DNA of 64,000 bases. It comes from a virus. Shown here piece by piece: positions 19,890-55,172 of this stretch. The notes below the pieces were generated by a model that was not told the origin of the DNA, did not search any database, and was given only the letters and a program-made list of their open reading frames with translations. Positions within the stretch are counted from its first letter, which is position 1. The number at the start of each line of letters is the position of its first letter. The position numbers were made by a program, and so were the translations under genes. The stretch covers positions 1 through 64,000 of the IMG/VR virus record IMGVR_UViG_3300037541_000804; one strand, written 5' to 3'.

Positions 19890-21395
19890 ATGATATTCGA
19901 CCAAAAGCTAGAACACCATCTAATTTCGGGCCTTCTTCGGAAGCCGAATGAGTATTTGACCATCCAATCGTTTTTCTCGGAGGATGACATTTACAGCGAG
20001 GATTCGTTGTTGCGGCGAACTATTTTGTCGCTCATTCGCCAAGCAGTAGAAAAGGGCGAAGGAGAATCTGTTGACGCAATGATTATTGCTCAACGGTTGG
20101 AGGGTTTGGGAATCAAGTTTGATGAGGAGATTCCAGTCGGCCAATTTGTTGAATCCTTAGCTCTTAGGAACGTTCCAGAAGGTTCCGTGTATAAAGCGGC
20201 TGTAGAGTTGAAGAAGCTAAGTTTGCGCCGAAAACTTTTAGACGCAATGGAAAGAGCGTCAGAAAAACTTAAGAAAGCTGATCGTTCCGCCTCTCTTGTC
20301 GAGCTAGAAGAAATTGTTGATAAGGAAATCAACAGCCAAATGAACGTATTTGATAGTGGTGAAAACGCGCCGTCTAATATTTACGAAAAAATGGAAAGCG
20401 TTATTGAAGAACGCGGCAATAATCCAGTTACAGATTTTGGGATGCTTGGGCCGTTCCCAACAGTGAATAAAATCTATGGTTCTCTTGTTCGAGAAGGTAA
20501 CGTGACGGTAATTTGTGCGCGTGCGAAGGGGGGTAAAAGCACTTTAGCAATGGATTATACAACTTATGTTGCTGACAAATATGATGTTGATGTTCTTCAC
20601 TTAGATAACGGAGAAATGAGCGAGCAAGAGCTAATTTTTCGCCAAGCATCATCGCTTTCGGGAGTTCCTCTTTATCTTCTTGAAACAGGTAAATGGAGAA
20701 ATGCTGGGGAAGAAATTGTCAATAAAGTGCGTTCCGTTTGGAAGCGTATTAAAAAATTGCGTTTTTATTACTACTGCGTTGGAGGAATGCCAGCGGATGA
20801 AATGGTGGCTTTTGCCAAACGCTTCTACTACAACAAAGTTGGAAGAGGAAAAAGAATGATCATCTCTTTCGACTACCTCAAAACAACAGGTCAATTAAAC
20901 GGCAATCTTACAGAATGGCAGGTTGTTGGAGAAATCGTTGATAAATTTAAGAAGCTCATCGCTAAGGAAATTGTATTCGATAATAAACCAATGGTGAGTA
21001 TGTTCACTAGCGTTCAGAGTAATCGCTCTGGCATTGTTACGAACAAGAAAAAGGAGAATATCACAGACGACGAAAGTGTTGTCAGCTTGTCAGACCGTAT
21101 TATTCAATATTGTTCTCACATGTTTCTATTGCGAAAGAAAACAATGGACGAAATTTTAGAAGATGGCGAGCAATTCGGGACTCACAAGTTAATCTGTTTT
21201 GCTGCCCGACACCTGGGAGAAGATGTTTCTGGAGAATTGGAACCAGTAAAAATTGGTGATAAACTAGAGAAAAATTGTATTTTCCTTGAGTTTTCTAACT
21301 TTAGAATCTCTGAAAAGGGAGATTTAAGAAAGTTAGCTGGGTATAAAAATTTTCCACTAGAAGAATCAAAGACGGATGATCCAACAAGTTTTTAA
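19890..21395 (+). CDS. dnaB: DnaB-like replicative helicase
   Basis: A 501-aa hexameric helicase. The N-terminal helical domain (1-150) carries LEHHLISGLL as in DnaB. The RecA-like core has the P-loop ARAKGGKST (210-218), HLDNGEMS where DnaB has its catalytic SLEMS glutamate, ISFDYL as Walker B, and SVQSNR in the sensor position. It unwinds the fork with the primase encoded two genes on. Its last codons (DDPTSF) reappear at the end of the inserted endonuclease gene, which begins inside this gene at 21376. Confidence 0.88.
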   Translation: MIFDQKLEHHLISGLLRKPNEYLTIQSFFSEDDIYSEDSLLRRTILSLIRQAVEKGEGESVDAMIIAQRLEGLGIKFDEEIPVGQFVESLALRNVPEGSVYKAAVELKKLSLRRKLLDAMERASEKLKKADRSASLVELEEIVDKEINSQMNVFDSGENAPSNIYEKMESVIEERGNNPVTDFGMLGPFPTVNKIYGSLVREGNVTVICARAKGGKSTLAMDYTTYVADKYDVDVLHLDNGEMSEQELIFRQASSLSGVPLYLLETGKWRNAGEEIVNKVRSVWKRIKKLRFYYYCVGGMPADEMVAFAKRFYYNKVGRGKRMIISFDYLKTTGQLNGNLTEWQVVGEIVDKFKKLIAKEIVFDNKPMVSMFTSVQSNRSGIVTNKKKENITDDESVVSLSDRIIQYCSHMFLLRKKTMDEILEDGEQFGTHKLICFAARHLGEDVSGELEPVKIGDKLEKNCIFLEFSNFRISEKGDLRKLAGYKNFPLEESKTDDPTSF

Positions 21396-21398
21396 CGA
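21376..21398 (+). repeat. Junction repeat, left copy (dnaB end/endonuclease start)
   Basis: The 23 bases from ATG 21376 match those from ATG 22439 at 18 positions, including an identical ACAAGTTT core. Here they hold the dnaB stop and the endonuclease start. Confidence 0.6.
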
Positions 21399-22458
21399 AA
21401 TAAGTCAGCTTTTAGACTCTGGACGAAGCATGCTTAGAATAAGCAAAGAACTCTCCGTTTCTTATTCAACAGTTAGAAGGGTTGCCATACAAAAAGGTTT
21501 GATCGCAAAGGGCAAAAGAAAATACAACGGCATCTATGATACTAATTTTCTGAATGAGATAAATTCTCCAGAGGCGGCAAGATTTTTGGGAATAATGGGT
21601 TCAGACGGAAATATTAATAAAAACATGGCGAGCTTATCGCTGGCTGTAGATGATATAAAGTACCTAGAAAATATAAAAAATCTAATTTGTCCAGACTTAA
21701 AATTGAAGGTCTATAAAAACCATCCCCATAAGGATGTAGCGCGAATAAATATTTGTCATAAAACAGTTAGGGATCAATTAAGAAAAAATGGCATAGTAGA
21801 GAGGAAAAGCTGCATCTATGATTTCCCAGACATTCCGAAGCGTCTTTATTCTTCATTTATTTTGGGTCTATATGAGGGAGATGGCTCTATTTCTCTATCC
21901 ACAACAAGAAATTTAGTAAGGTTTGGTCTTGTAGGGTGCCATTTAATCATTTTAAAGATAAAGGATTTCCTAGAAAAAGAGCTTAAGATAAGTCTCTGCG
22001 TCTCCTATCATAAAAACGTCAAGGAGTTTGGTTCTATATGCAGTATTGGCACAAAAAATAACCTAGATACGCTCAGGGTTTTAGATTTCTTATATTCCTC
22101 AGAAGTAGATTTCTTTATGGAGAGAAAGCTCAAAAAATTTCAAGATGCCCTTTATTTAAAAGATGGATTTGTGGAAAGAAGGGAGATTTTTAAACAAAAA
22201 CATTCCAAGACTATTAAAGAGGCTAACGATTTGAAATCAAAAGGTCGATCTATGTCTGAAATAGCCAAATTAATAAATAATGATTACGCGCATGTTAGAT
22301 ACCTGTTAAGATATAAAAGGTCTTCCATCGAAGAGGATAGTATTGCATATAGCGGAGATTCATTTATTCTCGCGGAAAAACTAAAAGAGAAATATAAAAA
22401 TTTGTTTGAAAAACATCTACCAGAGCGCTCCCATGCAAATGAACCCACAAGTTTCTAA
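21376..22458 (+). CDS. LAGLIDADG homing endonuclease
   Basis: A 360-aa protein. An N-terminal helix-turn-helix-like part (about 1-45, SVSYSTVRRVAIQ) is followed by two LAGLIDADG helices, ARFLGIMGSDG and FILGLYEGDG, and then a second HTH-like segment (SMSEIAKLINNDYAHVRYLL). It would cut a specific DNA site and spread by copying into cut genomes. The gene is more AT-rich than dnaB. It begins in the last 20 bases of dnaB and ends inside the start of the next gene; its last residues NEPTSF repeat the dnaB ending. See the finding on the junction duplication. Confidence 0.85.
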   Translation: MIQQVFNEISQLLDSGRSMLRISKELSVSYSTVRRVAIQKGLIAKGKRKYNGIYDTNFLNEINSPEAARFLGIMGSDGNINKNMASLSLAVDDIKYLENIKNLICPDLKLKVYKNHPHKDVARINICHKTVRDQLRKNGIVERKSCIYDFPDIPKRLYSSFILGLYEGDGSISLSTTRNLVRFGLVGCHLIILKIKDFLEKELKISLCVSYHKNVKEFGSICSIGTKNNLDTLRVLDFLYSSEVDFFMERKLKKFQDALYLKDGFVERREIFKQKHSKTIKEANDLKSKGRSMSEIAKLINNDYAHVRYLLRYKRSSIEEDSIAYSGDSFILAEKLKEKYKNLFEKHLPERSHANEPTSF

Positions 22459-22461
22459 TCA
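22439..22461 (+). repeat. Junction repeat, right copy (endonuclease end/next gene start)
   Basis: Right partner of the repeat at 21376. Here it holds the endonuclease stop and the start of the Cys-containing protein. Confidence 0.6.
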
Positions 22462-22801
22462 CTACTATCTCTACGCCAAACCAGATGAGCTACAATCTCT
22501 TGGCGTTGAAGAATTTTACGAGACGGATGTTTCCCTGCTTTCCGCCGAATTAACAGACGAACACGTTAAAAGCCTAATCCCGCACTCAGACTATTGTTAT
22601 AAATGGTTGGAAACACCCCAACCCGAAAACAACTATCGCGGCAAAGTCAAGACTTGCCCATTTTATGACAAAATGGAAAACCTTCCCGCTCAATCAAACG
22701 GCTATTGCCACTATCTGAAAGCGGGTGACTTCACAGAAAATGGCGCACATCTTTTATTTGACATGTGCAAGGAGTGTGGTATCAATGTAGAAAATGAGTG
22801 A
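22439..22801 (+). CDS. Hypothetical Cys-rich protein, 120 aa
   Basis: ATG 22439 is chosen because the duplicated sequence at 21376 also places an ATG here; ATG 22433 is two codons longer. Cysteines in CPFYD, GYCHYL and CKECG suggest zinc binding. Similar small phage proteins with a CPF/YC/KECG pattern sit beside primase and helicase genes but are uncharacterised. It overlaps the primase start by eight bases. Confidence 0.65.
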   Translation: MNPQVSNHYYLYAKPDELQSLGVEEFYETDVSLLSAELTDEHVKSLIPHSDYCYKWLETPQPENNYRGKVKTCPFYDKMENLPAQSNGYCHYLKAGDFTENGAHLLFDMCKECGINVENE

Positions 22802-23840
22802 CAAAAAACAATTCAAAACCTACCCCGCAGGCAAAGTCTGCGAGGTTCTTCAAACACTCAATTACCCACTACAAGACTTTGGCGCTTACGTTAGAACAAA
22901 AGCACTATATCGCGGCGGAGACTCCCCAAATACGCTTAAAGTTTGGAAAGAATCGGGCTGGTGCAAAGATTACGCGGAAGATAAAGGCTTTTCTCTCTAT
23001 GATCTTGTCGCTAAAACGTTGGGGACAACAAATCCAAAAACAATTCTAGAAATTATAAATTGCGAAAAACAAACCGCCATTTATAGCCCCCGCCCAAAAT
23101 TCCTTATGGCCAAAACTTTTGACCCCAAATGTTTGGAAAGACTTCTCCCGAATTACTCATTCTACGAGAAGAAAAAGATTTCGGCGGAAACCCAAAAACT
23201 TTACAAAATGGGCTACGCCACAACGGGCCAAATGTTTCAACGGTTGACTTTCCCCATTTTTGACGAACACGGGCAAATCGTTGGATTTTCGGGCCGACAC
23301 ATTTATTGGACAGAGGAATCCTCATCTCCTAAGTGGAAACATATTGGACGCAAAGAAACGTGGACGTATCCTTATAGTCTTTGGCTAGACAACTCAGAAA
23401 TCAAAGAGAATTTCGATTCTGCGCCCGAAATCTTTCTCGTTGAAAGTCATGGCGATAGCATGGCCTTAACTGAAAACCGCATTTATAACCACCTCATCAC
23501 TTTCGGCAAAGAAGTTTCATCAACAATATTAGCTTTTCTCGTCAAGCGTGATCCTCAATTTGTAATAGTTGTTGGTAATCGTGACGAAAATAACGAAGGT
23601 CAAATCGGCGCGGTTCGAGCTTTGATTAAACTATCCAGCGTTTTCCCCATTGACATGCTGCGAATCAAGCTCCCGACTCTGAACGACTTGGGCGAAATGC
23701 AAGAAAACGGCGAAAATCTAGTTGACTGGCAGAAAAACGGTGCTATCCTTTCTAAACCCGAAATTCTAGAAATTATAAACAAACACCGCGAAAAGTTCAA
23801 CGCTGAGAAATTGGCAAAGTTTTTGAAGAAATATGACTAA
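22794..23840 (+). CDS. DnaG-like primase with TOPRIM domain
   Basis: A 348-aa primase. Residues 29-75 resemble the N-terminal template-binding fold but lack the usual zinc-binding cysteine cluster. LTFPIFDEHGQIVGFSGR (151-168) is the conserved RNAP-like motif, and the TOPRIM core follows with E217 in FLVESHGDS and an NRDEN acidic cluster near 262. It makes RNA primers for the helicase encoded upstream. Its last codons, KKYD plus stop, overlap the next ATG, and a 15-base copy of this junction lies 105 bases on. Confidence 0.8.
   Translation: MSDKKQFKTYPAGKVCEVLQTLNYPLQDFGAYVRTKALYRGGDSPNTLKVWKESGWCKDYAEDKGFSLYDLVAKTLGTTNPKTILEIINCEKQTAIYSPRPKFLMAKTFDPKCLERLLPNYSFYEKKKISAETQKLYKMGYATTGQMFQRLTFPIFDEHGQIVGFSGRHIYWTEESSSPKWKHIGRKETWTYPYSLWLDNSEIKENFDSAPEIFLVESHGDSMALTENRIYNHLITFGKEVSSTILAFLVKRDPQFVIVVGNRDENNEGQIGAVRALIKLSSVFPIDMLRIKLPTLNDLGEMQENGENLVDWQKNGAILSKPEILEIINKHREKFNAEKLAKFLKKYD
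23826..23840 (+). repeat. 15-bp direct repeat, left copy
   Basis: AAGAAATATGACTAA spans the primase stop and the next start. An exact copy is at 23931-23945. Confidence 0.8.
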
Positions 23841-24237
23841 AGTTTTAAAATTCGGAACAAAAGAATACACCAAATTTGCCAAAAAGAAGCAAAAATCCTT
23901 TCGCGAAAAGGCATCTGAAATTGAGAGTAAAAGAAATATGACTAAGAAAAACCAATCTTGGCTAGATGAAAAGCTCCTAGAGGTAGAAAATTGGGGAACG
24001 CTTACTCTTCTTCAATTCCTAAGGGATAATTACAGTGGCCGAATGGAAGCCGAAAGAAACACCATTTTCAAATACGGCACCGAAAATTATCACGGCTCAA
24101 ACCTTGACACTCACGATAGAATGGTTGCCGCCGTAAATAGAGTTTGGGATCGAGAGTTCAGGAAAATTTATAAATGGATTGAAAAATCTAACCCAGAGTG
24201 GAAAAAAACTCATCAATTTGGAGAAAAACATGACTAA
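23833..24237 (+). CDS. Hypothetical protein, 134 aa (possible start at 23938)
   Basis: The first 35 residues are Lys-rich and end just before a second MTKK start at 23938, which lies in the right copy of the 15-bp repeat. The region after it (WLDEKLLEVENWGTL...) looks like an independent 99-aa phage protein with a DTHDRMVAAVNRVWDREF helix. So the ancestral gene probably starts at 23938 and the first 105 bases are an insertion that kept the frame. No function is recognised. Confidence 0.6.
   Translation: MTKVLKFGTKEYTKFAKKKQKSFREKASEIESKRNMTKKNQSWLDEKLLEVENWGTLTLLQFLRDNYSGRMEAERNTIFKYGTENYHGSNLDTHDRMVAAVNRVWDREFRKIYKWIEKSNPEWKKTHQFGEKHD
23931..23945 (+). repeat. 15-bp direct repeat, right copy
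   Basis: Exact copy of 23826-23840. In one frame it would still encode the primase ending KKYD and stop; in the used frame it provides an internal ATG at 23938. Confidence 0.8.
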
Positions 24238-24691
24238 AAACAATTACCGTATTTGGGATACTCAAGATCACTTTTTCCGAAAAAGCGTTTACGAAACCGC
24301 CAAAGATTGCTATCTATTCATTGCACAGATGGGTTATGCAACCGCATTCAACTGTTATGGCGATGAGTTAAATTTTGATGATGAAAGATTCGTCATCCAA
24401 CAACACACAGGATCAACCGACTCTGCCCAAAACCCCATCTACGAAGGTGACGTTGTTCTCTGGCACGCAGAAGATCATTTTGAGGGCGGTTACTCCTATA
24501 AAAAAATGGTTGTTGGCTGGAATCAGCGGTGTATGCAATTTCGTCTTTTTGAATTTCCAAACCAAGTCGGGAAAGCTGCGGGTGAAACATTTTGGGCCGA
24601 AGATGTGAGAGTAATTGGCCACGTTTTTGATTATGAGAACGAAGAGTGTCGGTATCACTTGGATGAGTCAGTGAAAAACTTGAGGAAATAG
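24230..24691 (+). CDS. YopX-family phage protein
   Basis: Starts at ATG 24230, overlapping the previous stop by eight bases; the frame from 24179 is a spurious extension. RIWDTQDHFF at the N-terminus and VIQQHTGSTDSAQNPIYEGDVV in the centre are the YopX signature (usually QYTGLKD..G..IYEGDI). The C-terminus has the family's VIGHVFD/E ending. YopX proteins are widespread in phages, structurally beta-rich and of unknown role. A diverged paralog is at 32409. Confidence 0.8.
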   Translation: MTKNNYRIWDTQDHFFRKSVYETAKDCYLFIAQMGYATAFNCYGDELNFDDERFVIQQHTGSTDSAQNPIYEGDVVLWHAEDHFEGGYSYKKMVVGWNQRCMQFRLFEFPNQVGKAAGETFWAEDVRVIGHVFDYENEECRYHLDESVKNLRK

Positions 24692-24693
24692 TC

Positions 24694-25029
24694 ATGAACA
24701 ATAACATCCAATTCGGATCAATAAACGTCGAAACGGGCGAATCTCAAGAGGGTTATATTGAAAACGGCCAAATGAAATTCAAACCTATGAAATGGTGGCA
24801 AAAACTCTTCTTCAAAAAACCCGAAGAAAAAGAGTTTATTGGCTCATATAAGTATGAAACAAAATTCCCATGGTCAAAGCAATGTGTGAAGCGCCAAATC
24901 GCCATGTATAAATACTTTAATCCATACACTGGTAAAATCTATAAAATAGAAGGTTCTGACGGGGAAGAAACAATTCAACTTGACGTTGGAGCTTTTCAAA
25001 ACGGCCAAATCATTCCGATTAGACAATGA
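24694..25029 (+). CDS. Hypothetical protein, 111 aa
   Basis: A soluble beta-rich protein with an aromatic, basic stretch (KWWQKLFFKK, about residues 33-42). No family is recognised. The stop overlaps the ATG of a short duplicated start (25026), which implies that the ancestral neighbour downstream was the HIRAN-nuclease gene now at 25579. Confidence 0.55.
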   Translation: MNNNIQFGSINVETGESQEGYIENGQMKFKPMKWWQKLFFKKPEEKEFIGSYKYETKFPWSKQCVKRQIAMYKYFNPYTGKIYKIEGSDGEETIQLDVGAFQNGQIIPIRQ

Positions 25030-25061
25030 ATAAAATCACCGCTTCCGTCGCTGGCATTTAA
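25026..25061 (+). pseudogene. Duplicated 11-codon start of the HIRAN-nuclease gene
   Basis: ATG 25026 encodes MNKITASVAGI then TAA. The same eleven residues start the gene at 25579. The two differ at four third-codon positions only, all synonymous. This is a scar from insertion of the two genes between 25065 and 25575. Confidence 0.75.
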
Positions 25062-25064
25062 AAT

Positions 25065-25235
25065 ATGATTGGCAAGATTAAAAACAAAATAATTCGCCGC
25101 GTGGTGTTAATTGTCACACTTCCAGTTACAATTCCACTATCTTTAGCGATCCTACTCTTTGATTCTGCCCCAGGAATTATCAAGGATATGGCGGGGGAAA
25201 TCTCAGAATGTTGGAGACGTAGTTCATTAGATTAA
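25065..25235 (+). CDS. Small single-pass membrane protein, 56 aa
   Basis: Too short for a routine ORF cut-off. A basic amphipathic start (MIGKIKNKIIRR) is followed by one hydrophobic span, about residues 13-32, and a charged tail. This plan is shared by small phage inner-membrane peptides, inserted with the positive end in the cytoplasm. It lies inside the inserted segment and is followed four bases later by its partner gene. Confidence 0.6.
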   Translation: MIGKIKNKIIRRVVLIVTLPVTIPLSLAILLFDSAPGIIKDMAGEISECWRRSSLD

Positions 25236-25239
25236 ACAT

Positions 25240-25575
25240 ATGAGCGGAAAAACCAGACCAACGAAATACGTCAATATTGATGACGACTACACCAAAAACC
25301 ATTTGCGAATCTTAATTGATTGGCTGGTTAACGAAGTCGGCTCCGCTGGCGGAGATGGGGATGCTATTTGGTATTCAGAATTTTATTGGGTCGATGACAT
25401 TCTCGCTCTCGTTCAAGAGCATAACGACAAGCAAAAATACAAGTGGCAAATCTCTTTTGACGAAGAAAAGGGCCAAATTTTTTATGGAGAACGTCAAGAG
25501 GGTCTTTTGATAACAAACAGCAAAGAAGACTTTGATAACCGCCCAAGCTGGCAACAATGTTCGGTAGTTCTTTAG
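25240..25575 (+). CDS. Hypothetical protein, 111 aa
   Basis: An acidic soluble protein with many Trp and Tyr residues (IDWLV, AIWYSEFYWVDD). No domain is recognised. It belongs to the same inserted unit as the membrane peptide and ends just before ATG 25579. Confidence 0.55.
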   Translation: MSGKTRPTKYVNIDDDYTKNHLRILIDWLVNEVGSAGGDGDAIWYSEFYWVDDILALVQEHNDKQKYKWQISFDEEKGQIFYGERQEGLLITNSKEDFDNRPSWQQCSVVL

Positions 25576-25578
25576 CCC

Positions 25579-26757
25579 ATGAATAAAATCACCGCCTCCG
25601 TCGCAGGAATCTCTTTTGCCCTAAAAGACAATCCCGCCCTCAAATACTCCGAACTCAGAGAGGGCGAAAAACTGTCAGTTATTCCCGAACCAGAGAACGA
25701 ATATGACCCTAAAGCTATCCGCCTAGAATATAATGGTAGCAAAATTGGCTACGTTCCCCGAAAAAAAGAAGGACTAGATTTCAGCATTCAAAGCTGGTGC
25801 GCCGATCACATTGACTCGGTTTCGGCGGAAATTGACCAAACTTGGTATCGAAAAGACGGCGAAATCACTTTCGAGTATAGCGAGGGTTGTGAATTGGTTG
25901 GAGTTTACGTTCGATTCGAGATTCCAATCAAAGACGAAACCGAATTTGATGACAAAATCATCACCAAACACTCGTTCAGCGAACCAGATGTAATTGTCGA
26001 TTTCAACGAGACAAAGCACATCTACAACATGCGCTGCGAAGGTGGCGTTAAAGTTCTCAAAGGCGGGACGACTTTCATCAAGAGATTTTACGATCCATTT
26101 GATGCGCCCAAAATTGCCCGCCAGTGTTCAAAATATTGGGGAGTTTCGGCCAAAGATATTGAAGAAATGTGGGCTTCAAATGGTTCTGTCAGCGCCCTCT
26201 TAGGTACAACGGTACACTTGGCTTTGGAGCACTATATCAATTACAAAGATGTAGGCAACACCATTACCACAACTCGCAAAGCCTCTGGCAAAGACGTAGA
26301 TGGGAACTACGCAATGCCAAAACACCCTTTCCTCAAGAAAACCATTGAATCACTTAACCGTCTAACCGACAAATTGGATAAAAAATACAAAGTCCAAGAA
26401 GTTGTCGCCGAAGCTCTTGTTACAGATTCGGCCACTGGTTGGGGCGGATTAGTTGACCGTCTTGCTATTCTCGACAAAGAGCGCAAAATCGCCCGCGTGC
26501 AAGACTATAAGGTGAACATTGGCGCGGAAAAAGAAGAGTCTCATAGCAAGCCAAAACAGCCATTCTCGCACCTTCCCGCGAATAAGCTAACGAAGTATGC
26601 TTTGCAGTTGAGCTTCTACTCGTCAATCCTAAAGAAGCATGGGTGGATTATTGAGGGCTTGGATGTCTTTATCTATGAGGAACGGTGGGTTCACCATTCA
26701 CTAGATTTGATTGATTTCGCGGCATATAAGGACGAGATTCAGAAAGTGGCAAAATAA
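25579..26757 (+). CDS. HIRAN domain fused to a RecB/Cas4-like PD-(D/E)XK nuclease
   Basis: A 392-aa two-domain protein. Residues 1-115 are a HIRAN domain (VAGIS..., PEPENEYDPKAIRLEYNG, IGYVPRK), known to bind 3' DNA ends in HLTF. Residues about 205-350 are a RecB-type nuclease: GTTVH (209-213), an acidic GLVDRL at about 291-295, QDYK with D309 and K311, and QLSFY (343-347). The fusion suggests a nuclease that recognises a DNA end or fork before cutting, acting with the RecA-like protein. I see no cysteines for a Cas4-type iron-sulfur cluster. Confidence 0.82.
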   Translation: MNKITASVAGISFALKDNPALKYSELREGEKLSVIPEPENEYDPKAIRLEYNGSKIGYVPRKKEGLDFSIQSWCADHIDSVSAEIDQTWYRKDGEITFEYSEGCELVGVYVRFEIPIKDETEFDDKIITKHSFSEPDVIVDFNETKHIYNMRCEGGVKVLKGGTTFIKRFYDPFDAPKIARQCSKYWGVSAKDIEEMWASNGSVSALLGTTVHLALEHYINYKDVGNTITTTRKASGKDVDGNYAMPKHPFLKKTIESLNRLTDKLDKKYKVQEVVAEALVTDSATGWGGLVDRLAILDKERKIARVQDYKVNIGAEKEESHSKPKQPFSHLPANKLTKYALQLSFYSSILKKHGWIIEGLDVFIYEERWVHHSLDLIDFAAYKDEIQKVAK

Positions 26758-26760
26758 TTG

Positions 26761-26789
26761 TTGACACGGTATGGTTTATGATTTAGTAT
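26761..26789 (+). promoter_or_regulatory. Sigma70 promoter, leaderless gene at 26796
   Basis: TTGACA (26761-26766), exactly 17 bases, TAGTAT (26784-26789), then six bases to ATG 26796. It is the cleanest example of the leaderless pattern in the window. Confidence 0.75.
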
Positions 26790-26795
26790 TGAACA

Positions 26796-27131
26796 ATGAA
26801 GAAGCCTAATCCAATTTTTGTCAGCGAACGCCTAGCCAGTGTTTATCCAGACGAACTAAGACTCACTCCCGAACAAGCTTTTCAAGCATTTGGTCTTGAA
26901 TTTCGGCCAGAGTTTCAAACTATAAGGCTAGAATTTGATGTGGACGAAGGCTATAGCGGGGATGTCTATAGACTAGAACTATTTGGTGTTCGCCCCGAAA
27001 CTCCCCAAGAAACGGAAAGACGAGAACTAGAAGCGGCCAAAATCATTGCGGCACAAAACCGAGACAAACAAAAGAAAGAAGACCGAGAGAAAAAAGAACT
27101 CGCCCGACTCAAGAAAAAATACGAAAAATGA
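26796..27131 (+). CDS. Hypothetical protein, 111 aa, charged coiled tail
   Basis: The first 70 residues look folded (beta-rich, IRLEFDVDEGYSGDVYRLELFGV). The last 40 are a highly charged Lys/Glu/Arg helix (QKKEDREKKELARLKKKYEK), probably a coiled coil or nucleic-acid contact. It leads the DNA polymerase operon and overlaps the PHP gene by an ATGA. Confidence 0.6.
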   Translation: MKKPNPIFVSERLASVYPDELRLTPEQAFQAFGLEFRPEFQTIRLEFDVDEGYSGDVYRLELFGVRPETPQETERRELEAAKIIAAQNRDKQKKEDREKKELARLKKKYEK

Positions 27132-27886: not shown

Positions 27887-27887
27887 A

Positions 27888-28520
27888 ATGAACGACCTTT
27901 TGCGATTTAAATTTGATCAGAAATTCTTATTGCTAGACACTGAGACGGCAAATTTAAGCCTGACCAGCGGCCTTCCTTGGCAAATTGCTTGGTTGACTAC
28001 CAAGGGTAAATACGTCACCAACAAATTCGAGCGTAAAATCAAATGGCCTGATTATCGCGTAGCGCCCGAAATTGCCGTTTTTAACCATTTTGACGAAGCG
28101 CAATACTTGCGTGAGGCACGCGACCCTGTTGAAGTGCTTGACGAGTTTGAGAGCTATCTATACGATCCATCTTACATGAGCGTGGGAATGAATACGCTTG
28201 GTTTTGATTTTGCGATTATCAATAATTGGCGCAAAGCTTTGGGCCGAAAGACTGATTATTCTTGGCTAGACCGTCATTGGGATATTTTGGCGGTGTATCG
28301 GGCGATTCAAAGCGGCGCAAAGAGTCCGCCGAAAGATGATTTCTTGGCTTGGCAGTATTCATGGATCAATCATCGAGATAGGAAGATTAAGGCGTCACTA
28401 TCGAGTCAGTTGAAGCATTACGGGGTGCCATTTAGGGAGGAAGACCGCCACGGGGCATTGTACGATGTAGAACTGACCTTCGAGGTATTTAAGCGTCAAC
28501 TTTTTGAGCTAGATATTTAA
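27888..28520 (+). CDS. DnaQ-like 3'-5' proofreading exonuclease
   Basis: A 210-aa DEDDh exonuclease. ExoI is LLLDTET (D17, E19), ExoII NTLGFDF (D107), ExoIII HGALYDVELT (H188, D193). It removes mismatched nucleotides for the polymerase encoded downstream. ATG 27888 is used; the in-frame ATG at 27867 lies inside the preceding gene. The 3' end is overlapped by the convergent endonuclease gene for 32 bases. Confidence 0.88.
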   Translation: MNDLLRFKFDQKFLLLDTETANLSLTSGLPWQIAWLTTKGKYVTNKFERKIKWPDYRVAPEIAVFNHFDEAQYLREARDPVEVLDEFESYLYDPSYMSVGMNTLGFDFAIINNWRKALGRKTDYSWLDRHWDILAVYRAIQSGAKSPPKDDFLAWQYSWINHRDRKIKASLSSQLKHYGVPFREEDRHGALYDVELTFEVFKRQLFELDI

Positions 28521-29274
28521 CCCTAGCTTGTCGAGCCTCTTCTTCTGTATCAAACCAACCCAAGTATTTATTTTTTGGGCCATATGCCCGCCATCTTCCT
28601 TCCCCTTTATGATAACCGACACCTTTCCATTGAGAGGATACCGTAGGAAGAGACGAGATTATACTTTGACACTTATCGAACTTTCGCTTTAACCCGAACT
28701 CAAAATCATTTGGATAAAGATACTTAGATAGGCGAAACAAATCTGGGCCATATTTTATTTCTAAAACAGAACCTCGTCCACTTAAATAGCTTTTTTGAAA
28801 ATAAAAAAAGTTTTCAATTTCTAATTCATTAAGTAAAACTAAAAAATCAGACCAATCCTGTTCATAAGAACCAGCAAGAGAAAATGTTCCGCCAATTCTT
28901 CCTTTTCTTTTGTAAAAACAACCATCTGCGTCGATATAGCCAAGCCAGAAATACCTATGGTTTTCTTTTGGAATCTGAGAAAGAATTTTGCTAGGAGAAT
29001 TTATGCTTTTTAATAAAAAATCATTATTTAGCATTAAATCTATTAGGCCCCTGTTCTTTGTAAAGAAAAACCCTCCCTGAGTTCTCCTATTCTTTAATTC
29101 TTGTCTCTTAAATTGAAAAGTGGCAACTTTTTCAAAGACACTAAAAAGTGATAAAGCATCTTCTTCTACAATCCTTATGTTTGGCGTCATATACCCATCG
29201 CCACTCTTAAAACACCCATCTCCCCAGAAAAACCCAAGAAAGTAAGCCCAATATTTATCAAATACATCAACCAT
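28489..29274 (-). CDS. LAGLIDADG endonuclease with C-terminal AP2 domain
   Basis: A 261-aa mobile endonuclease. LGFFWGDG (about residues 13-20) and LGYIDADG (about 112-119) are the two LAGLIDADG helices. The last 55 residues (KGVGYHKGEGRWRAYG...LGWFDTEEEARQAR) are an AP2-type DNA-binding domain, often attached to HNH endonucleases and less often to this class. It is on the opposite strand to the polymerase genes it separates, and is clearly more AT-rich. ATG 29274 is preferred over the TTG extension to 29295, which would include the GTGTAAT motif. Confidence 0.85.
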   Translation of the reverse strand: MVDVFDKYWAYFLGFFWGDGCFKSGDGYMTPNIRIVEEDALSLFSVFEKVATFQFKRQELKNRRTQGGFFFTKNRGLIDLMLNNDFLLKSINSPSKILSQIPKENHRYFWLGYIDADGCFYKRKGRIGGTFSLAGSYEQDWSDFLVLLNELEIENFFYFQKSYLSGRGSVLEIKYGPDLFRLSKYLYPNDFEFGLKRKFDKCQSIISSLPTVSSQWKGVGYHKGEGRWRAYGPKNKYLGWFDTEEEARQARVKYLAQKVDA

Positions 29275-29284
29275 AGCATTAAGG

Positions 29285-29291
29285 ATTACAC
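29285..29291 (-). promoter_or_regulatory. GTGTAAT motif before the AP2 endonuclease
   Basis: On the minus strand GCGTGTAATCC ends about ten bases before ATG 29274. The same GCGTGTAATCC 11-mer precedes the tape measure gene. Confidence 0.4.
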
Positions 29292-29328
29292 GCAAAAATG
29301 CTTTTTACGATTTTTCCACTGAAAATAG

Positions 29329-29357
29329 TTGACGAATCAGTTAGACTAGCGTATATT
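29329..29357 (+). promoter_or_regulatory. Promoter of the polymerase unit
   Basis: TTGACG (29329-29334), 17 bases, TATATT (29352-29357), seven bases, ATG 29365. The transcript would start on or next to the start codon. Confidence 0.72.
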
Positions 29358-50600: not shown

Positions 50601-51142
50601 GTTTTATATTCGACACCAGAAATTCTCGAAAGGATTAACGCATCGCGAGTTCTCTTTAGCGTTTCTTGAACACCAAGACCTTGACGGGAAAATTCTAGCG
50701 CCGCTTTTGAAGTGATTTCAAAGCTTTGGCCAGTGAGTTTGGCCGTTTGGAAAATCTGCTTGCCGAACTGTTCAATGCTAATTCCAGCCTTCGAGAAGTT
50801 ATCGCCAGCGACAACAGCAATTTGTGTCATGGCTTTTTCTACATCAGCGGTAGTTTTGACAAGCGCTAAAAATGAGCGCCGCATACCTTCGATAACACCA
50901 ACGGCAGTTCCGAACGCCAATACGCGAGCATTGGCCGCTTCCATCGACTTTGTAAACTGATCTGCATCATGACGAATTCGGCCAAGAGCCGCGCTGCCAG
51001 CTTTTAATCCAGACGAATCAAAGCCGCCAATCTTAATTTTTTGAAACGAAGAACTAATCTTGTCAACCAAGACCTTAGCTTTCGCCTCTGCTTGGCGAAT
51101 TTCAAGATCAACGCTTGCTGGTATTTTAAGATTTTCGGCCAT
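44618..51142 (-). CDS. Tail tape measure protein
   Basis: A 2174-aa protein, the largest gene here. Residues about 80-330 are a TP901-type tape measure core (FSKAGISIEQFGKQIF, SFEITSKAALEFSRQG). Long helical and coiled-coil stretches fill the centre, with a glycine-rich hydrophobic segment near residue 980. The end has two copies of a Gly-rich GGxxxGxGTxDxVPxLxxxGExxxN motif, typical of tape measure C-termini. An internal repeat of about 36 residues (SANTSFNGGNL / SANTFFDGGNL) lies near 48700-48900. At about 0.15 nm per residue it predicts a tail near 0.3 micrometre. Confidence 0.93.
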   Translation of the reverse strand: MAENLKIPASVDLEIRQAEAKAKVLVDKISSSFQKIKIGGFDSSGLKAGSAALGRIRHDADQFTKSMEAANARVLAFGTAVGVIEGMRRSFLALVKTTADVEKAMTQIAVVAGDNFSKAGISIEQFGKQIFQTAKLTGQSFEITSKAALEFSRQGLGVQETLKRTRDALILSRISGVEYKTAVDGLTSTLNAFKQSGIDSTTVINKLVAVDNAAAVSLVDLIEGLQRSASVAQLTGQNIDQTIASIATLQEITARGGSQIGNSLKSIFTRLYDEDSIKFLETFQGGVIKVRDEVGNLIPAIEIMRNLGNAIKDLPKDQQINIFKDISGLYQVNAAAALAGQGLQELNKQRSIYDKILGTSEGAKDNALAANATLAEILSAKFNTLGVQLEEILNSAGKIGVKNPLSSLLDSLIDTGDFLQSILEGTDLFSQSIQKIGSFLGGSLFSPAVFGAIAIAIGKIGVNFATFAINAGKTFLGLNAAGQEQAAIQKSIAAYIQQSGANLSTLLTSESARLNLAKQISAEWAKQAVYAKQVSAVSQIVSGSVYNSGLRVGEAGPTLSKKGLRSAEGYLPDLVSGEMNDIKKGIGGASSNSKVVVMPNFPLGGGNKGLMVANSSESVVNLGGGKFGVLNQDMMGQRAASGFLKGQRLKNSSGKFTTADNLEVGLENQVQLLVDLGQTIEQIVDAATVVIRSFDLNEKSIQLVVSSTEKYANSLKVASERVKLLAEASSNGFDVAAGEAEARRRANPSSNIYGNIGSANTSFNGGNLNSTADVFGVGAAQRQRVSSNSIYGNVGSANTFFDGGNLSSPSNSFGVEGSAQKYRRENEKKSLQEQERKAKLQALYGESLAARRESLGVKSGGGFKSGIAGVDSRIPQSSLAVASKTVDPEALQKLAIKAVIATSVLDGLSASFLRGSKETEKYADLISKIAISAFAFQGLNQLGGVNASNLGGGKLAEKLGSLLGGASGGAGGALKKATGSLLAFGGGLLKFLPVIGQGALALTVLNEAVQVVTGKSGFQRLKEAFGGLTVEAEKSAQAFKDNAESLFDASGKAILRTPKEIQGSFQSKLSDARKEREAKAAGINTEGKDQSQISNELLGKRLDNLISATKTGTVNKIGFGGQGAGGVVEVEETLGNINSSITTVIKENLQLLSNQTEEGLREFLASKGVSKIGAEDIKSSGLDKLQDEVYKLFLENIAKNIEPIKRAAESGRAGELTATFGQRFFNISEKKTAKAGQLGNFRSEKFSQESIDKFLDVQREIELLAFDSSTASLEAKIKGLESLSTSSSLSSVAKNDIENQISNIQKSIYEAALKKAEVESKNEIEKIKKNSGEGKEFSTLEGNARITKVIEQFGVQETEIKANIKSITDNTRIRQQEFNAIQKLVPAIEAAKSSLNTIALDRAKIQGNITRLQAQSNNPQLGTLQREQSQRDLAGLQVQELNKSRDELLKSTEAQRLEIDSTIQDERTKRRAIEDLNNSRDIELEAINANIDALNIETSQIGLTKDARQEFQDSLLEFSRGLGQSRAQNQFNLLQATDKSSIVSGLIGEQSFDAVQGKSGSDLVSSLSEQNAIRQQQFDIATAASKVERLNLETELELNQQIFAIRNSDLSAAEKQLAIENAINANLEKRRSFGFGVRESLSGMQDEVNNFGSTFGKTATEGFKDGLVGAMQAAVSRTGSLKESLLDVALAFANKLRDAALDNLAKIATNALFGQGGSGGGVISSVLGAFTKRASGGQVTGGSGTKDDVPTLLMGGEYVVNKKSVQKYGSQFFEALNSGSVGQMAQGGYFAPGVRGQGNITGKENLLDFATQTATSGGQDVRRSLMGGAGMVSLEPESLRLSSFNRFGDSPIVQATQDAKDQAFGLYVDQLGQEKQYQEELAEYYRQLEEARAAKEKAKKEERRQFWISLAVAAVGGATSGYKANSAGKNANSLGNTQYSGGSIRGVSERPNISGVSAGSSSYRGSSSNYFNSSSNFGIPFRSAPSYSGGVTNSYRPSSFDYLNFGSDILGIYSGRNFGSLINRSTQPPRRGFGDYENPLFPSASYTPYGRNSGGAISGSGDTVPIMASKGEFMINSSAAKKIGYSNLYSMNNGGVPSSEGDDSMIAAKLDELIEKTIGASNVTVNVTVSKDGEKSSEEGGGDQNNKMLAEKLRSAVVQVIQLEQRPGGVLSKR

Positions 51143-51159
51143 ATTCCTCTATCAAGAGG

Positions 51160-51166
51160 ATTACAC
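51160..51166 (-). promoter_or_regulatory. GTGTAAT motif and hairpin before the tape measure gene
   Basis: On the minus strand GCGTGTAATCC is followed by a CCTCT-TGAT-AGAGG hairpin (51144-51157) and then ATG 51142. The AGAGGA of the hairpin doubles as a Shine-Dalgarno, so the structure could regulate translation. Confidence 0.45.
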
Positions 51167-51168
51167 GC

Positions 51169-52140
51169 TTACTTGGACAATAAATTAGCCATTTGCGTGG
51201 AGTCCATTTTGCCGCCGTTTTTCTTCAATTCTTCGGCCAAATCTATCTTTTTAGCTGTAGGATCGTAGTATTCCAAGTCTTCTTTTGTCGCGCCGACAAC
51301 ACCAACAGTTGAGTGTTTGCTTCCTTTTGTTGGGTTTTTGTCTCTTTTCTTTTGAGTTTCAACAAAATCGAGTAGTTCTTTTGGCGATTTTCTTATGGAG
51401 TCGGGAATGTTTTCGACATTTTGCAAGATATTTAGGAACATTCTGCCGTAAGCTAGCATCTTTAGTTGATAAATACTCAAAGAAACAACCGAACGGCCAA
51501 AAAAGTCAAACGGTTTCTCTACTTGCGACAAATATAGGGAAAAAGCATCGCTTAACACTGCCTCTTGGATTTTCTCGTCCGTCATTCTGTCCGTCAAGCC
51601 GTAGTATTCTTTCATAAACGGCGAAAGGTCGTCAATTTGATTAAAATCTTCCTGCGAGTATTTCAATTCCCGACATTCCCTATCGGAATACAGGATATTA
51701 CGAATAAACTCTTCATTGGAGAACGAAACAGCATAATCTTCCGCCGTTTTTCCAAAGGGCGCGATGGTGCAAATCAATTCGCGCCGCTTGTTCAAAATTA
51801 CGTTTAGCTCTTTAGCTTGGGCGTCGATTGTTTTTTGAGTTGAGTCTTTTTGGCTTTTTAGTTCTAAGGCTTTTTTAGTATTAGAAAGAGTTTCGATGTA
51901 GCTTTTCTTTTCCTCAATATCAAGTTCGTCCTTGTCCGTCCAGAGGTTGCTCTTTTTTAGCCGCTCAAGGCATTCTTTCTCTGTCGGGACGGATTTTAAG
52001 GCTATCTTTTTTTGCTTTTCGAAAGCATCCGCCAAAACCTTTTGATCACGCAAATTGATATGGCGCAAGTAAACGGCCCCATCCAAAATAGGAGTGAGGC
52101 CGTCAAATATTTCGCAAATTAATGGCGAAAAATCACTCAT
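51169..52140 (-). CDS. Tail assembly chaperone-position protein, 323 aa
   Basis: A helical, Lys/Glu-rich protein with coiled-coil character (about residues 60-130) and no recognised signature. It lies immediately upstream of the tape measure gene, where tailed phages encode the tail assembly chaperones, and overlaps the preceding gene by eight bases. I saw no classical slippery heptamer at the junction, so a programmed frameshift is not supported. ATG 52140 is preferred over the in-frame extension to 52155. Confidence 0.5.
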   Translation of the reverse strand: MSDFSPLICEIFDGLTPILDGAVYLRHINLRDQKVLADAFEKQKKIALKSVPTEKECLERLKKSNLWTDKDELDIEEKKSYIETLSNTKKALELKSQKDSTQKTIDAQAKELNVILNKRRELICTIAPFGKTAEDYAVSFSNEEFIRNILYSDRECRELKYSQEDFNQIDDLSPFMKEYYGLTDRMTDEKIQEAVLSDAFSLYLSQVEKPFDFFGRSVVSLSIYQLKMLAYGRMFLNILQNVENIPDSIRKSPKELLDFVETQKKRDKNPTKGSKHSTVGVVGATKEDLEYYDPTAKKIDLAEELKKNGGKMDSTQMANLLSK

Positions 52141-52903
52141 CAGACTTCTCTTCAACCTTTTCGTCCACCTTCTCGATGCTTGTCATACGAGAGGCGAATT
52201 CTTCGGCGGTAATACCCATATTGTAGGCATAAAGGGCGCTGGTTAGGGCGATTTTTTCTTTTGCGGCGGAATAAACAGGTGTTGGGGCTTCCTCTAGTTC
52301 AAAGTAGAACTTTTCCTGATCTTCAAAGTTTGCACCTTCGAACATTTTTTGCGGCTCATCATTTTCGCGTTGGAAGTAGATGAAATTGACGGCAAACCAA
52401 GTGGTAAGATCGGTTTCAGCTTTAGATTCGGCGGTCAAAGCAAAGAGAGATGTTTTGTACTGGTGGAGTTCAATGATCTGATTCTGCAAGAGGGAGAATT
52501 CGTCCTTTAGTTTTTTGATCTTTTGCTTGACGGCTTTCTTGGGTTGAGTGCCAGCGACAATCAGTTCTTCTTGGACTTCGTAGAGGCGGGTCTGGACTTT
52601 GGCCAATTCTTTAGAGCTAGAATCGGAGATGAGTCCGCCGTTGTCAGAATACTTGTTCAAAAGCATGGCCCGCGTCATGAGTTTCTTCTCTTGAATGTAA
52701 TAGTTTACGCGCATAGCGTAAAACAGTTCGGCCTCGCGGGTGTCAATTCGAGATGGTTTCTTGAATAGGAACTTTACAGGAGATTCGACCGTTTCGGTTG
52801 TTTCGACAATAGCTTCCTTGCCGTCAACGGTTTGGGGCTTTTTGACCTGCTTTTCGGTCTTTTCGGTGACGGTGAATTCGTATAGGGGAGTGATTTTGGC
52901 CAT
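52133..52903 (-). CDS. Tail assembly chaperone-position protein, 256 aa
   Basis: A charged protein of beta then helical character. Residues 43-90 (VKFLFKKPSRIDTREAELFYAMRVNYYIQEKKLMTRA) look like a conserved core, and the acidic end (EKVDEKVEEKSDE) is disordered. Its position, two genes before the tape measure, suggests tail assembly chaperone or related function. TAATATTAATAAACC precedes the ATG and holds possible -10 elements 6-9 bases away. Confidence 0.5.
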   Translation of the reverse strand: MAKITPLYEFTVTEKTEKQVKKPQTVDGKEAIVETTETVESPVKFLFKKPSRIDTREAELFYAMRVNYYIQEKKLMTRAMLLNKYSDNGGLISDSSSKELAKVQTRLYEVQEELIVAGTQPKKAVKQKIKKLKDEFSLLQNQIIELHQYKTSLFALTAESKAETDLTTWFAVNFIYFQRENDEPQKMFEGANFEDQEKFYFELEEAPTPVYSAAKEKIALTSALYAYNMGITAEEFASRMTSIEKVDEKVEEKSDE

Positions 52904-52922
52904 GGTTTATTAATATTAACGT

Positions 52923-53207
52923 TTAAAGACAGAAAGACACTTCATAATTATCTATTTCTAAATCAGACTCACGAATAACATCGTTGCCCGAATCTAGGAT
53001 TTTCTTACGAAGGCGTTGGTATTTCTCTTTTGAGAATGGATTTCCTACGACGAGAATAGGTATATATTCTTTTGGTAACTTATCGAGAAGATTTCCATAA
53101 AACTCATCATGCGAAGCCTTGACTTCTCCTAGAATTTCTAAGTATTCTTTGAATAACGCGGTAATAAAACGACGCTGCCTTTTTTGAAGAGAGTCCTTTG
53201 CTTGCAT
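52923..53207 (-). CDS. Hypothetical protein, 94 aa
   Basis: ATG 53207 is chosen; the frame extends to a TTG at 53243, but that stretch contains the GTGTAAC motif. The protein is basic at the start (KDSLQKRQRRF), helical, with a PKEYIPILVVGNPFSK segment, and is probably the first gene of the leftward tail operon. Function unknown. Confidence 0.55.
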   Translation of the reverse strand: MQAKDSLQKRQRRFITALFKEYLEILGEVKASHDEFYGNLLDKLPKEYIPILVVGNPFSKEKYQRLRKKILDSGNDVIRESDLEIDNYEVSFCL

Positions 53208-53232
53208 GTGGAAATCCTTAATCCTGAAAAGC

Positions 53233-53255
53233 GTTACACGCAAAAGGGGTGTAAT
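53233..53255. promoter_or_regulatory. Divergent GTGTAA motifs (inverted repeat)
   Basis: GTTACAC (53233-53239) and GTGTAAT (53249-53255) form an inverted repeat with a nine-base gap, one copy facing the tail operon on the minus strand and one facing right. The right copy is seven bases before an ATG (53263) whose frame (MARKENILL) stops after nine codons at the edge of the TnpB element. Confidence 0.5.
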
Positions 53256-53349
53256 TCCTTATATGGCACGCAAAGAAAACATCCTCCTTTAGGTGAAGGA
53301 TGAATTTCCGCTAAATATTTAACAATTATCGAAGATTTTGATAAATCCA

Positions 53350-53358
53350 GTGTAATAT
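53350..53358 (+). promoter_or_regulatory. GTGTAATAT motif before tnpB
   Basis: GTG-TAATAT, with TAATAT (53353-53358) as -10 and seven bases to GTG 53366, giving a leaderless start. It resembles the element before 54711. Confidence 0.45.
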
Positions 53359-53365
53359 ATGATGA

Positions 53366-54532
53366 GTGACGCATTGTGCTTACAAATTCCGCATCTATCC
53401 AACGCCAGAACAGGAAACTGTTTTGCGGCAGACAATCGGCTGCTGCCGATTTGTCTATAACTGGGCGCTGGCTCAGCGGCGCGAGGCGTGGGTAACAAGC
53501 AAGAAAAGCGTTTCTTACAATGCAACGTCTAAAGGTTTGACGGAATTGAAGGAATCGCCCGAGAAAGCGTGGCTCAACAGCGTCTCAAGCGTTTGCTTGC
53601 AACAAAGTTTGCGCAATCTTGATTCGGCGTTTGTAAACTTCTTTAAGAAACGAGCTTGCTATCCAGTTTTTAAAACACGAAAGAATGGTGGAAACGCACG
53701 TTTTCTAGACAACGCCTTCCGAATTGACGGAAACAATCTTTTTCTTGCTAAAATTAAAACGCCTCTCAAAGTTATTTGGTCGCGCAAACTCTCTGGAGAG
53801 CCAAGTCAGTGTGTTGTTTCGCAAAACGCCAGCGGTCAATGGTTTGCCAGCCTTCTATGTGAAGAGGAAATCTCTAAGCTCCCGCACTCCGACAAAAGGA
53901 TCGGTATCGACTTGGGAATCGAAACATTCGCGTCAACGAGTGACGGGCAGAAGTTTGGACAACCAAAGCGTATTCGTCGCTTGCGCCAAAAATTGGTTCG
54001 CTTACAACGATTGCATTCTCGCAAGCAGAAGGGTTCTAAGAACCGCGAAAAGGCTAGGCTTAAAGTTGCCCGCCTTCATCAGCATATCGCCGACACGCGA
54101 AACGATTTTCTCCACAAACTATCCACCAAGCTCATTCGTGAAAACCAAACGATTGCGCTAGAGGATTTGGCCGTTAAAAACATGGTTAAGAACCGCAAAC
54201 TTTCTCGACGTATAAGCGAGCAAGGCTGGCGGAGTTTCCGAACTATGCTTGAATATAAGGCTGAGTGGTATGGGAGAGAACTACTCATCGTAGATCGCTG
54301 GTTCCCAAGTAGCAAGACTTGTTCTTGTTGCGGGAGAAAAGCCGATCTTTCTTTGAAAGATCGCAAATGGACATGCGAATGTGGGGCCACGCATGACCGA
54401 GACATTAACGCCGCCAAGAATATCCTCGCCGCTGGACAAGCGGTGCCATTTGCCTGTGGAGCAGACGCAAGACCATCGAAGGACTACGTTCTTCGGGGCA
54501 GTCCGCAACGAAGCAGGAAACCCAAGGCGTGA
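53366..54532 (+). CDS. tnpB: TnpB RNA-guided nuclease
   Basis: A 388-aa protein with all TnpB hallmarks: YKFRIYPTPEQ at the start, WED-like and helical domains, RuvC-I D182 (GIDLGIETFAS), RuvC-II E266 (IALEDLAVKNM), zinc finger cysteines at 319/322 and 337/339, and RuvC-III D346 (HDRDINAAKNI). It is therefore likely active: guided by the omega RNA from its 3' end, it cuts DNA next to a short motif and favours retention of the element. GTG 53366 is the start, since a stop precedes it in frame. Confidence 0.95.
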   Translation: MTHCAYKFRIYPTPEQETVLRQTIGCCRFVYNWALAQRREAWVTSKKSVSYNATSKGLTELKESPEKAWLNSVSSVCLQQSLRNLDSAFVNFFKKRACYPVFKTRKNGGNARFLDNAFRIDGNNLFLAKIKTPLKVIWSRKLSGEPSQCVVSQNASGQWFASLLCEEEISKLPHSDKRIGIDLGIETFASTSDGQKFGQPKRIRRLRQKLVRLQRLHSRKQKGSKNREKARLKVARLHQHIADTRNDFLHKLSTKLIRENQTIALEDLAVKNMVKNRKLSRRISEQGWRSFRTMLEYKAEWYGRELLIVDRWFPSSKTCSCCGRKADLSLKDRKWTCECGATHDRDINAAKNILAAGQAVPFACGADARPSKDYVLRGSPQRSRKPKA

Positions 54533-54539
54533 GCCAAGG

Positions 54540-54572
54540 AATTCACGCCGTTCACGGCGGGGAGTATGTCAA
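54540..54572 (+). ncRNA. 3' end of the TnpB guide (omega) RNA
   Basis: The scaffold end is the hairpin 54546-54559 and GGGGAGTATGTCAA. The 5' extent lies within tnpB and cannot be placed from sequence. The guide would be the bases after 54572, beginning TTAACACAGGCTCAAAAG, which resemble the start of the gene at 54711. Confidence 0.6.
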
Positions 54573-54590
54573 TTAACACAGGCTCAAAAG
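54573..54590 (+). pseudogene. Remnant LTQAQK of a neck-gene start next to TnpB
   Basis: TTA ACA CAG GCT CAA AAG encodes LTQAQK, also residues 6-11 of the gene at 54711, where the codons are CTG ACA CAA GCT CAA AAA: only synonymous third- or first-base changes. The remainder to 54710 shows no further clear match and no gene. Confidence 0.6.
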
Positions 54591-54696
54591 GGATGCGATT
54601 AGTAGTCTTGTGAAGAAGAAGAGTAATTTGTAATCATTTCGGCTATTTCTAGCTTTAGATAAGGGTCGGTATTGGGGAGGCGCAACTTTACTTAAA

Positions 54697-54705
54697 GTGT
54701 AATAA
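54697..54705 (+). promoter_or_regulatory. GTGTAATAA motif before the neck genes
   Basis: GTG-TAATAA ends five bases before ATG 54711, suggesting a leaderless late transcript. No -35 is recognisable. Confidence 0.5.
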
Positions 54706-54710
54706 ATAAC

Positions 54711-55172
54711 ATGGCTATTAGCTACCTGACACAAGCTCAAAAAAACACAATCAGCGGCCTCATAGACTCGATCCATTTAACGTTTGCAGTTGATGTTACC
54801 GCTTTTCAAATAAGTAAGAAAGCCGCTTTAACCGCCGACCCAAGTTTCAACTCAATTTACCGCCAAAACTCAGCGCAAGTTTCTTCCACGGAGCGTTCTT
54901 TAACGTTCAAAGCTCGTATTCGCTACTTAAAAATGGGAGAGGAGCTAATGACAGAATCAGACGGCTCAAATGCTACGAGCATTCAAGGGAGAGTTATTTT
55001 GCCCGTTGGCAGCGTGAAAATGAAAGTGGATAACACTGCTCACGAATTCTTAGAAACGGCCAAACGTGTGGAGATTAGCGGCAAAAGATTCATTGTTAAT
55101 GGCCATGCTCGGGCTATCGGGATGTTCGACAAGTCCCAATACTGGGAATACTTTTTAACGCCAACAGATTAA
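54711..55172 (+). CDS. Head-tail connector-like protein, 153 aa
   Basis: A small protein with a helical start (SYLTQAQKNTISGLIDSIH) and a beta-rich C-terminal part (GRVILPVGSVKMKVDNTAHEFL...KRFIVNGHAR). Size, late-type promoter and order before two further structural genes and the tube protein match head-closure or neck proteins, but the assignment is by position. Its stop shares a base with the next ATG. Confidence 0.45.
   Translation: MAISYLTQAQKNTISGLIDSIHLTFAVDVTAFQISKKAALTADPSFNSIYRQNSAQVSSTERSLTFKARIRYLKMGEELMTESDGSNATSIQGRVILPVGSVKMKVDNTAHEFLETAKRVEISGKRFIVNGHARAIGMFDKSQYWEYFLTPTD

Follow-up and report, generated by a model that had tools for sequence, protein, structure and literature searches.

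Homing nucleases that interrupt phage genes at a coding end are probably accompanied by a replacement of the broken end

In this study, we examined gene ends beside mobile nucleases in a 64,000-nucleotide stretch of phage DNA (the window), which covers positions 1-64000 of the IMG/VR virus record IMGVR_UViG_3300037541_000804, a genome of 165,329 bases with a G+C content of 0.416 (G000). Three selfish DNA-cutting elements, namely a LAGLIDADG endonuclease gene behind dnaB and a TnpB element in this phage and an HNH endonuclease gene in its relative G010, adjoin the cut-off end of a gene, and in each case the gene is complete thanks to another, diverged end that is intact. Judged from these sequences, homing nucleases that break a gene at its coding end are probably found with the broken end replaced. 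A preliminary description of the window had reported four border repeats, at dnaB, on the primase side, at a HIRAN nuclease gene and at the TnpB element. All four are present; those at dnaB and TnpB are confirmed by relatives with an empty site and the one at HIRAN by statistics, while the primase-side pair does not rise above chance.

These repeats were judged in a scan of the 484 gene borders of the 165-kb genome, controlled by 393 interior points and by reversed queries, in which the HIRAN pair alone was exceptional at the DNA level. The dnaB and TnpB repeats are weak by DNA alone, and relatives were therefore needed to judge both. Among phage records, the best matches to DnaB have less than 30% identity; closer are the uncultivated contigs G001 (94% in dnaB), G002, G003 and G004 and, for the tail region, G010/L011.

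The dnaB and TnpB insertion sites

The features of the dnaB locus are as follows:
19890..21395, plus strand: dnaB-like replicative helicase gene, chimeric (PF03796, E=2.5e-11)
about 21270-21395, plus strand: diverged replacement tail of dnaB, the last ~40 codons (from identity to G001 and codon usage)
21376..22458, plus strand: HEG1, an open reading frame (ORF) of 360 codons for a helix-turn-helix and LAGLIDADG homing endonuclease (phrog_4645 endonuclease, E=9e-31)
22420..22458, plus strand: displaced native dnaB 3' end, encoding PERSHANEPTSF and a stop, now the C-terminus of HEG1 (match to the DnaB C-termini of G001 and G002)
22439..22801, plus strand: ORF of 120 amino acids with no assigned function, starting at the ATG of the native dnaB/primase junction (absent at this place in relatives)

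HEG1 starts within the overlap at the dnaB stop and ends as the displaced native dnaB tail. Two LAGLIDADG motifs, FLGIMGSDG and LGLYEGDGS, were recognized in it by eye, and its match to PF14528 (E=0.003) lies under the cut-off. The gene is absent at this place from G001, G002 and G003 and thus shows a presence/absence polymorphism; between dnaB and the primase gene there is no gap in G001 and G003 and one of 37 bp in G002. DnaB ends in LERSHSNEPTSF in G001 and in LEKSHSNEPTSF in G002, and in the window it is HEG1 that ends in PERSHANEPTSF, DnaB itself ending in EESKTDDPTSF. Compared as protein, the relatives' DnaB tails score 56-60 against the HEG1 C-terminus (control maxima 48 and 50). As DNA, the repeat (21376-21395 versus 22439-22458, 17/20 in a local alignment) has an unremarkable score of 12.5, with 38 of the 484 borders reaching at least 13. 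The replaced stretch is really about 40 codons rather than 20 bp long: between about codons 15 and 450, the window dnaB is 93-100% identical to that of G001 at the amino acid level in nearly all comparison windows, which then drop to 87, 80, 40 and 67% over the last ~50 codons.

Since the DnaB C-terminus is variable across the family, and the divergence of the tail could partly be ordinary, codon usage was tested. Of the 40-codon core windows, 99.2% are less endonuclease-like than the last 40 codons of dnaB (HEG1 was excluded from the training), none of 89 core C-termini is as endonuclease-like, and the G+C content at third codon positions is 0.22 in the tail and 0.39 in the rest of dnaB. The displaced native tail has core-like codon usage. 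The endonuclease-like usage of the replacement tail favours the idea that this tail has resided with the endonuclease.

In another reading, HEG1 would be borne by an intron or intein and dnaB would be spliced. Such an arrangement is suggested by the HEG1 relatives of Brevibacillus and Alicyclobacillus phages, which are placed between pieces of DNA polymerase. However, no Rfam match was obtained in the 19-56 kb region, dnaB is open to its own stop, and HEG1 coding spans from the stop overlap to the native tail, which leaves no space for an intron core, so that we give splicing hardly any weight. No HEG1 relatives were found in IMG/VR with exact peptide patterns or in 19 relative records.

At the TnpB locus, the following features were distinguished:
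53263..53268, plus strand: ATGGCA, the first two native codons, start included, of the gene that TnpB interrupts (joined flanks compared with the L011 empty site)
53269..54572, plus strand: TnpB-only element of the IS200/IS605 type with end hairpins and the right end ...ATGTCAA; tnpB at 53366-54532 (PF01385, PF07282, PF12323)
54573..54612, plus strand: what remains of the original start of the gene (LTQAQK, frameshift, DAISSLV)
54711..55172, plus strand: intact tail gene with a differently coded start (CTGACACAAGCTCAAAAA; 61% amino acid identity to L011)

To set its boundaries, the element was aligned with the two other genomic copies, at 111273 and 115514. When the flanks are joined (53151-53268 plus 54573 onwards), they align continuously through the L011 empty site with a score of 59.5 and read MA followed by LTQAQK..DAISSLV, with one later frameshift, which places TnpB two codons into the original gene start. 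The left flank carries most of this alignment (52.5 alone; shuffle maximum 13.5), and the right flank alone is marginal (15.0; shuffle maximum 14.5). A second, intact start of the 54711 gene with its own upstream region lies about 100 bp further on. The repeat between the two starts (54573-54590, encoding LTQAQK, versus 54726-54743) matches at 14/18 positions and all four differences are synonymous (p about 0.002). TnpB proteins belong to a family that reads its guide from the right flank. If this usual arrangement holds here, the remnant at 54573-54612 would be the guide target, and the second start is mismatched to the flank 20-mer at six positions (1, 3, 9 and 18-20).

For the TnpB site alone there is a serious alternative, to which we assign a probability somewhat short of even: the native start fragment may already have been a nonfunctional relic from a previous replacement of the gene when TnpB entered what was by then neutral DNA. 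This would agree with the replacement start having its own upstream region and core-like codon usage, and with other TnpB copies lying in intergenic DNA or beside HNH-like sequence; none of the two further G000 copies or of those in G001 and G004 has a border copy. Against it, the fragment still had its native frame and promoter position when TnpB inserted, and one frameshift is its only visible decay. Among the steps that we infer for these loci, the arrival of the second start together with TnpB is the least certain.

Two observations were made in passing. The right flank of the TnpB copy at G000 111273-112433 runs into HNH endonuclease-like sequence, one mobile element thus lying beside or inside another, and an open frame, KLRLPNTDPYLKLEIAEMITNYSSSSQDY, is found between the TnpB remnant and the intact gene (window 54602-54688, minus strand), with no match among the compared loci.

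The HNH endonuclease of G010 and the survey of relatives

In a second scan, 45 junctions that differ by at least 100 bp between the phage and a relative, about 41 of them distinct, were searched for copies of either relative's gene ends within the insert, and cross-junction controls gave maxima of 48 and 50. This unbiased scan yielded a new case in G010 (L047), with a score of 156 against a control maximum of 50:
2711-2827, minus-strand gene: 5' fragment with 39 native codons
1893-2708: HNH homing endonuclease gene (phrog_655, E=1e-47)
1343-1840, minus strand: intact, diverged copy of the fragmented gene

The 39-codon fragment is far closer to the G000 gene than the start of the intact copy is. 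Three other scan matches were rejected: one at G010 51142/51169 goes back to a mis-extrapolated tape-measure start, one at G001 138077/138096 is the ordinary intergenic flank of a TnpB, and one in Salmonella phage SS9 consists of antisense frames with stops and a weak DNA match.

Two readings had been offered in the preliminary description, mobile cargo that brings a rescue copy of the split junction and nuclease-driven recombination between diverged phages. Rescue cargo is favoured at dnaB, where the replacement tail looks endonuclease-like and the displaced tail core-like. Recombination fits the HNH case of G010, where the intact copy is a diverged, core-like allele, and the dnaB locus itself, where the near-identical phages G001 and G002 differ by a swapped dnaB allele, with no endonuclease there now. 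Each reading thus has support for a subset of the sites; the HIRAN insert has no nuclease, and on the primase side the repeat is at chance. The further proposal, that such scars are a common rule for insertions, fails in the scan, as 38 of about 41 distinct junctions are without a border copy. What is partly supported by these comparisons is that the scar is associated with nucleases that interrupt a coding end, rather than with insertions in general.

An ordinary modular exchange between diverged phages, with one junction homologous and the other illegitimate, selection for intact genes and the nucleases as mere bystanders common at such borders, would be a different explanation. The HIRAN site has the geometry of a scar without a nuclease, the nucleotide identity between G001 and G002 is 100% immediately before dnaB, about 65% within it and about 90% at the primase start, with no endonuclease present, and nuclease genes are described at phage exchange boundaries in passages of a published account (PMC10448857). 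On the other hand, none of the 29 nuclease-free junctions has a border copy, and the dnaB replacement tail has endonuclease-like codon usage. We consider modular exchange unlikely as the general explanation.

Several points nevertheless weigh against a replacement tied to the nuclease. Of the 12 nuclease-bearing junctions, 3 have a border copy, against 0 of 29 others (p=0.021), labels that we assigned ourselves from motifs and Pfam, and the association weakens to p=0.068 when HIRAN is counted as a positive without nuclease. Nine of the 12 nuclease junctions are without a border copy, and the empty-site comparisons number two or three. The variability of the DnaB C-terminus belongs here too, as does the core-like codon usage of both the replacement start at 54711 and the intact copy in G010, which does not point to travel with the nuclease in these two cases; for G010, a diverged phage allele is then the simplest source. 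Lastly, a GIY-YIG-like/NUMOD3 endonuclease gene (G000 155552-156286; L038:11552-12286, minus strand) took both ends of a 142-amino-acid gene with no replacement: its ORF begins MQLDFSEKEN and ends EITEEDEESC, the G001 gene reads MELDFSAQIR...EITEEGEESC, and the rest of this gene is missing in G000. This case would fit, post hoc, the idea that a replacement is retained only where the gene is needed.

At 12 homing-endonuclease sites of T4-like and other phages, no credible copy was found with a test that scored dnaB at only 38, within the controls, and so misses short cases. A second LAGLIDADG endonuclease gene of the window, with an AP2-like domain, lies at 28489-29295 on the minus strand and overlaps the 3' end of an exonuclease gene; no border duplicates were found at this insert.

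A possible mechanism and its known counterparts

The arrangement at the three sites might be explained as follows. An element would bring along, or be copied jointly with, an undamaged but diverged form of the end that it severs, the target gene would become a chimera of old body and new end that presumably escapes cleavage, and the old gene end would be left beyond the nuclease. At dnaB, the unit consists of the replacement dnaB tail and the LAGLIDADG gene, which is the geometry of the yeast WHO elements. G010 has the mirror image at a 5' end, in the order 39 native codons, HNH endonuclease and intact diverged gene. At the 54711 tail gene, TnpB lies two codons into the native start, and the gene is served by the second start with its own upstream region. 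This anatomy, the empty sites at dnaB and TnpB, the native origin of the displaced ends and the contrast in codon usage at dnaB are direct observations; we infer that the native alleles are cut and the replacements resistant, that events took this order and that nuclease and replacement arrived jointly, not by separate recombination. More tentatively, we suggest as a possibility that phages carry 'home-and-rescue' drives, in which nucleases of three unrelated kinds (LAGLIDADG, HNH and TnpB) destroy an end of a needed gene and spread by providing a form of this end that resists cleavage, resulting in stepwise end replacement and chimeric core genes.

In Torulaspora and Lachancea yeasts, the end state of a WHO element at FBA1 has the endonuclease gene behind a chimeric, resistant target and ahead of a piece of the former 3' end of the recipient (PMC7282813). 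As at dnaB and HEG1, a LAGLIDADG-type endonuclease gene lies downstream of an intact target with a diverged 3' end, the displaced old end lies beyond the endonuclease and there is presence/absence polymorphism. The present case differs in that the host is a phage, the target is dnaB, the endonuclease ORF continues in frame into the displaced end and there are 5'-end and TnpB versions too; cleavage and resistance are here deduced from the sequences. Mobile endonuclease ORFs with duplicated carboxy-terminal ends have also been described from fungal mitochondria, in atp6, atp9, cox2 and nad3 of Glomus and in atp6 of Allomyces, and in Glomus the native end lies downstream and is nearer to relatives (91% versus 64% identity in atp6) (PMC3630166). 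Here too, the element brings a replacement C-terminal coding end and leaves the native end downstream; unlike ours, these cases are mitochondrial and C-terminal, and hybrid transcripts were demonstrated by reverse transcription PCR (PMC3630166).

Free-standing homing endonucleases of T4-like phages (Seg and Mob) are described, in the passages drawn on here, in connection with split genes, introns and flanking exchange (PMC2988022, PMC10448857). As in our phages, these nuclease genes lie between essential phage genes and flanking alleles are exchanged, whereas those passages give no replacement end with a displaced native end. TnpB-only elements of the IS200/IS605 type share with ours the protein domains, the end hairpins and the lack of TnpA; the difference is that ours lies within a gene start and is followed by another start that is coded differently. 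In the open-licence literature, we found no phage description of a replaced gene end together with a displaced native end, and the strategy being already known from yeast nuclei and fungal mitochondria, the phage setting would be the new part.

If the proposed mechanism is correct, free-standing homing nucleases would need no splicing element to enter coding sequence of needed phage genes, and the mosaic ends of core genes such as dnaB would be explained as well. It predicts that the native end is cut and the replacement end spared, which can be tested, and the TnpB version, if causal, would extend the strategy to an RNA-guided nuclease.

The HIRAN locus, the primase side and other repeats

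The strongest border repeat of the genome belongs to the HIRAN locus:
25019..25061, plus strand: first, truncated copy of the HIRAN start, which encodes MNKITASVAGI before a stop and overlaps the stop of the preceding gene (34/39 repeat)
25065..25575, plus strand: two-gene insert, a small putative membrane protein (56-amino-acid ORF, by eye) and a 111-amino-acid protein
25579..26757, plus strand: intact HIRAN and Cas4/RecB-type exonuclease gene with a differently coded start (PF08797, E=1.6e-7; PF12705, E=0.0014)

The gene's tblastn matches are phage Cas4/RecB-like exonucleases. Its repeat (25019-25057 versus 25572-25610, 34/39) has a score of 26.5, the best of the 484 borders, with every reversed-query control below 15, and none of the four coding differences alters the protein (p about 0.003 if substitutions were random). 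The silent-only changes noted earlier thus hold for the coding differences at HIRAN and for TnpB, but at dnaB two codons change the residue. No nuclease domain was found in the insert, and the 111-amino-acid protein matches no family. A search for an empty site in IMG/VR (by protein and degenerate start pattern), with the upstream gene, and in genome contigs, phage records and 19 relative records gave no close relative, and scans with PolIII and primase gave no record spanning the region. The HIRAN site therefore has the geometry of a scar without a nuclease, and ordinary modular exchange may be as good an account of it as any.

On the primase side, an exact 15-mer, AAGAAATATGACTAA, occurs at 23826-23840 and 23931-23945 (plus strand) in the border scan. 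Its score of 15 is matched by 14 of 484 borders and 4 of 393 interior points, so that as an insertion scar it is indistinguishable from chance; 'ATGACTAA' stop/start overlaps recur in this region, also at 24230. That all short repeats are chance matches, aided by such overlaps, would agree with this pair and with the dnaB 20-mer and TnpB 18-mer being unremarkable alone. It is refuted for dnaB and TnpB by empty-site relatives that show the native ends and for HIRAN by a score above every reversed-query control, and is thus extremely improbable as a general account.

Two further short repeats were noted. Between dnaB and the primase gene of G002 (minus strand, about 394-431 in L050), the real primase start is preceded by a close copy of itself (TGACGAAAAACAATTC versus TGACAAAAAACAATTC), which is short and may be due to chance. 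In G000 (L035), an exact 19-bp repeat, TGTCAAGCGGCCAAATCAC, is present between small genes at 97328-97346 and 97545-97563 and is possibly a regulatory site.

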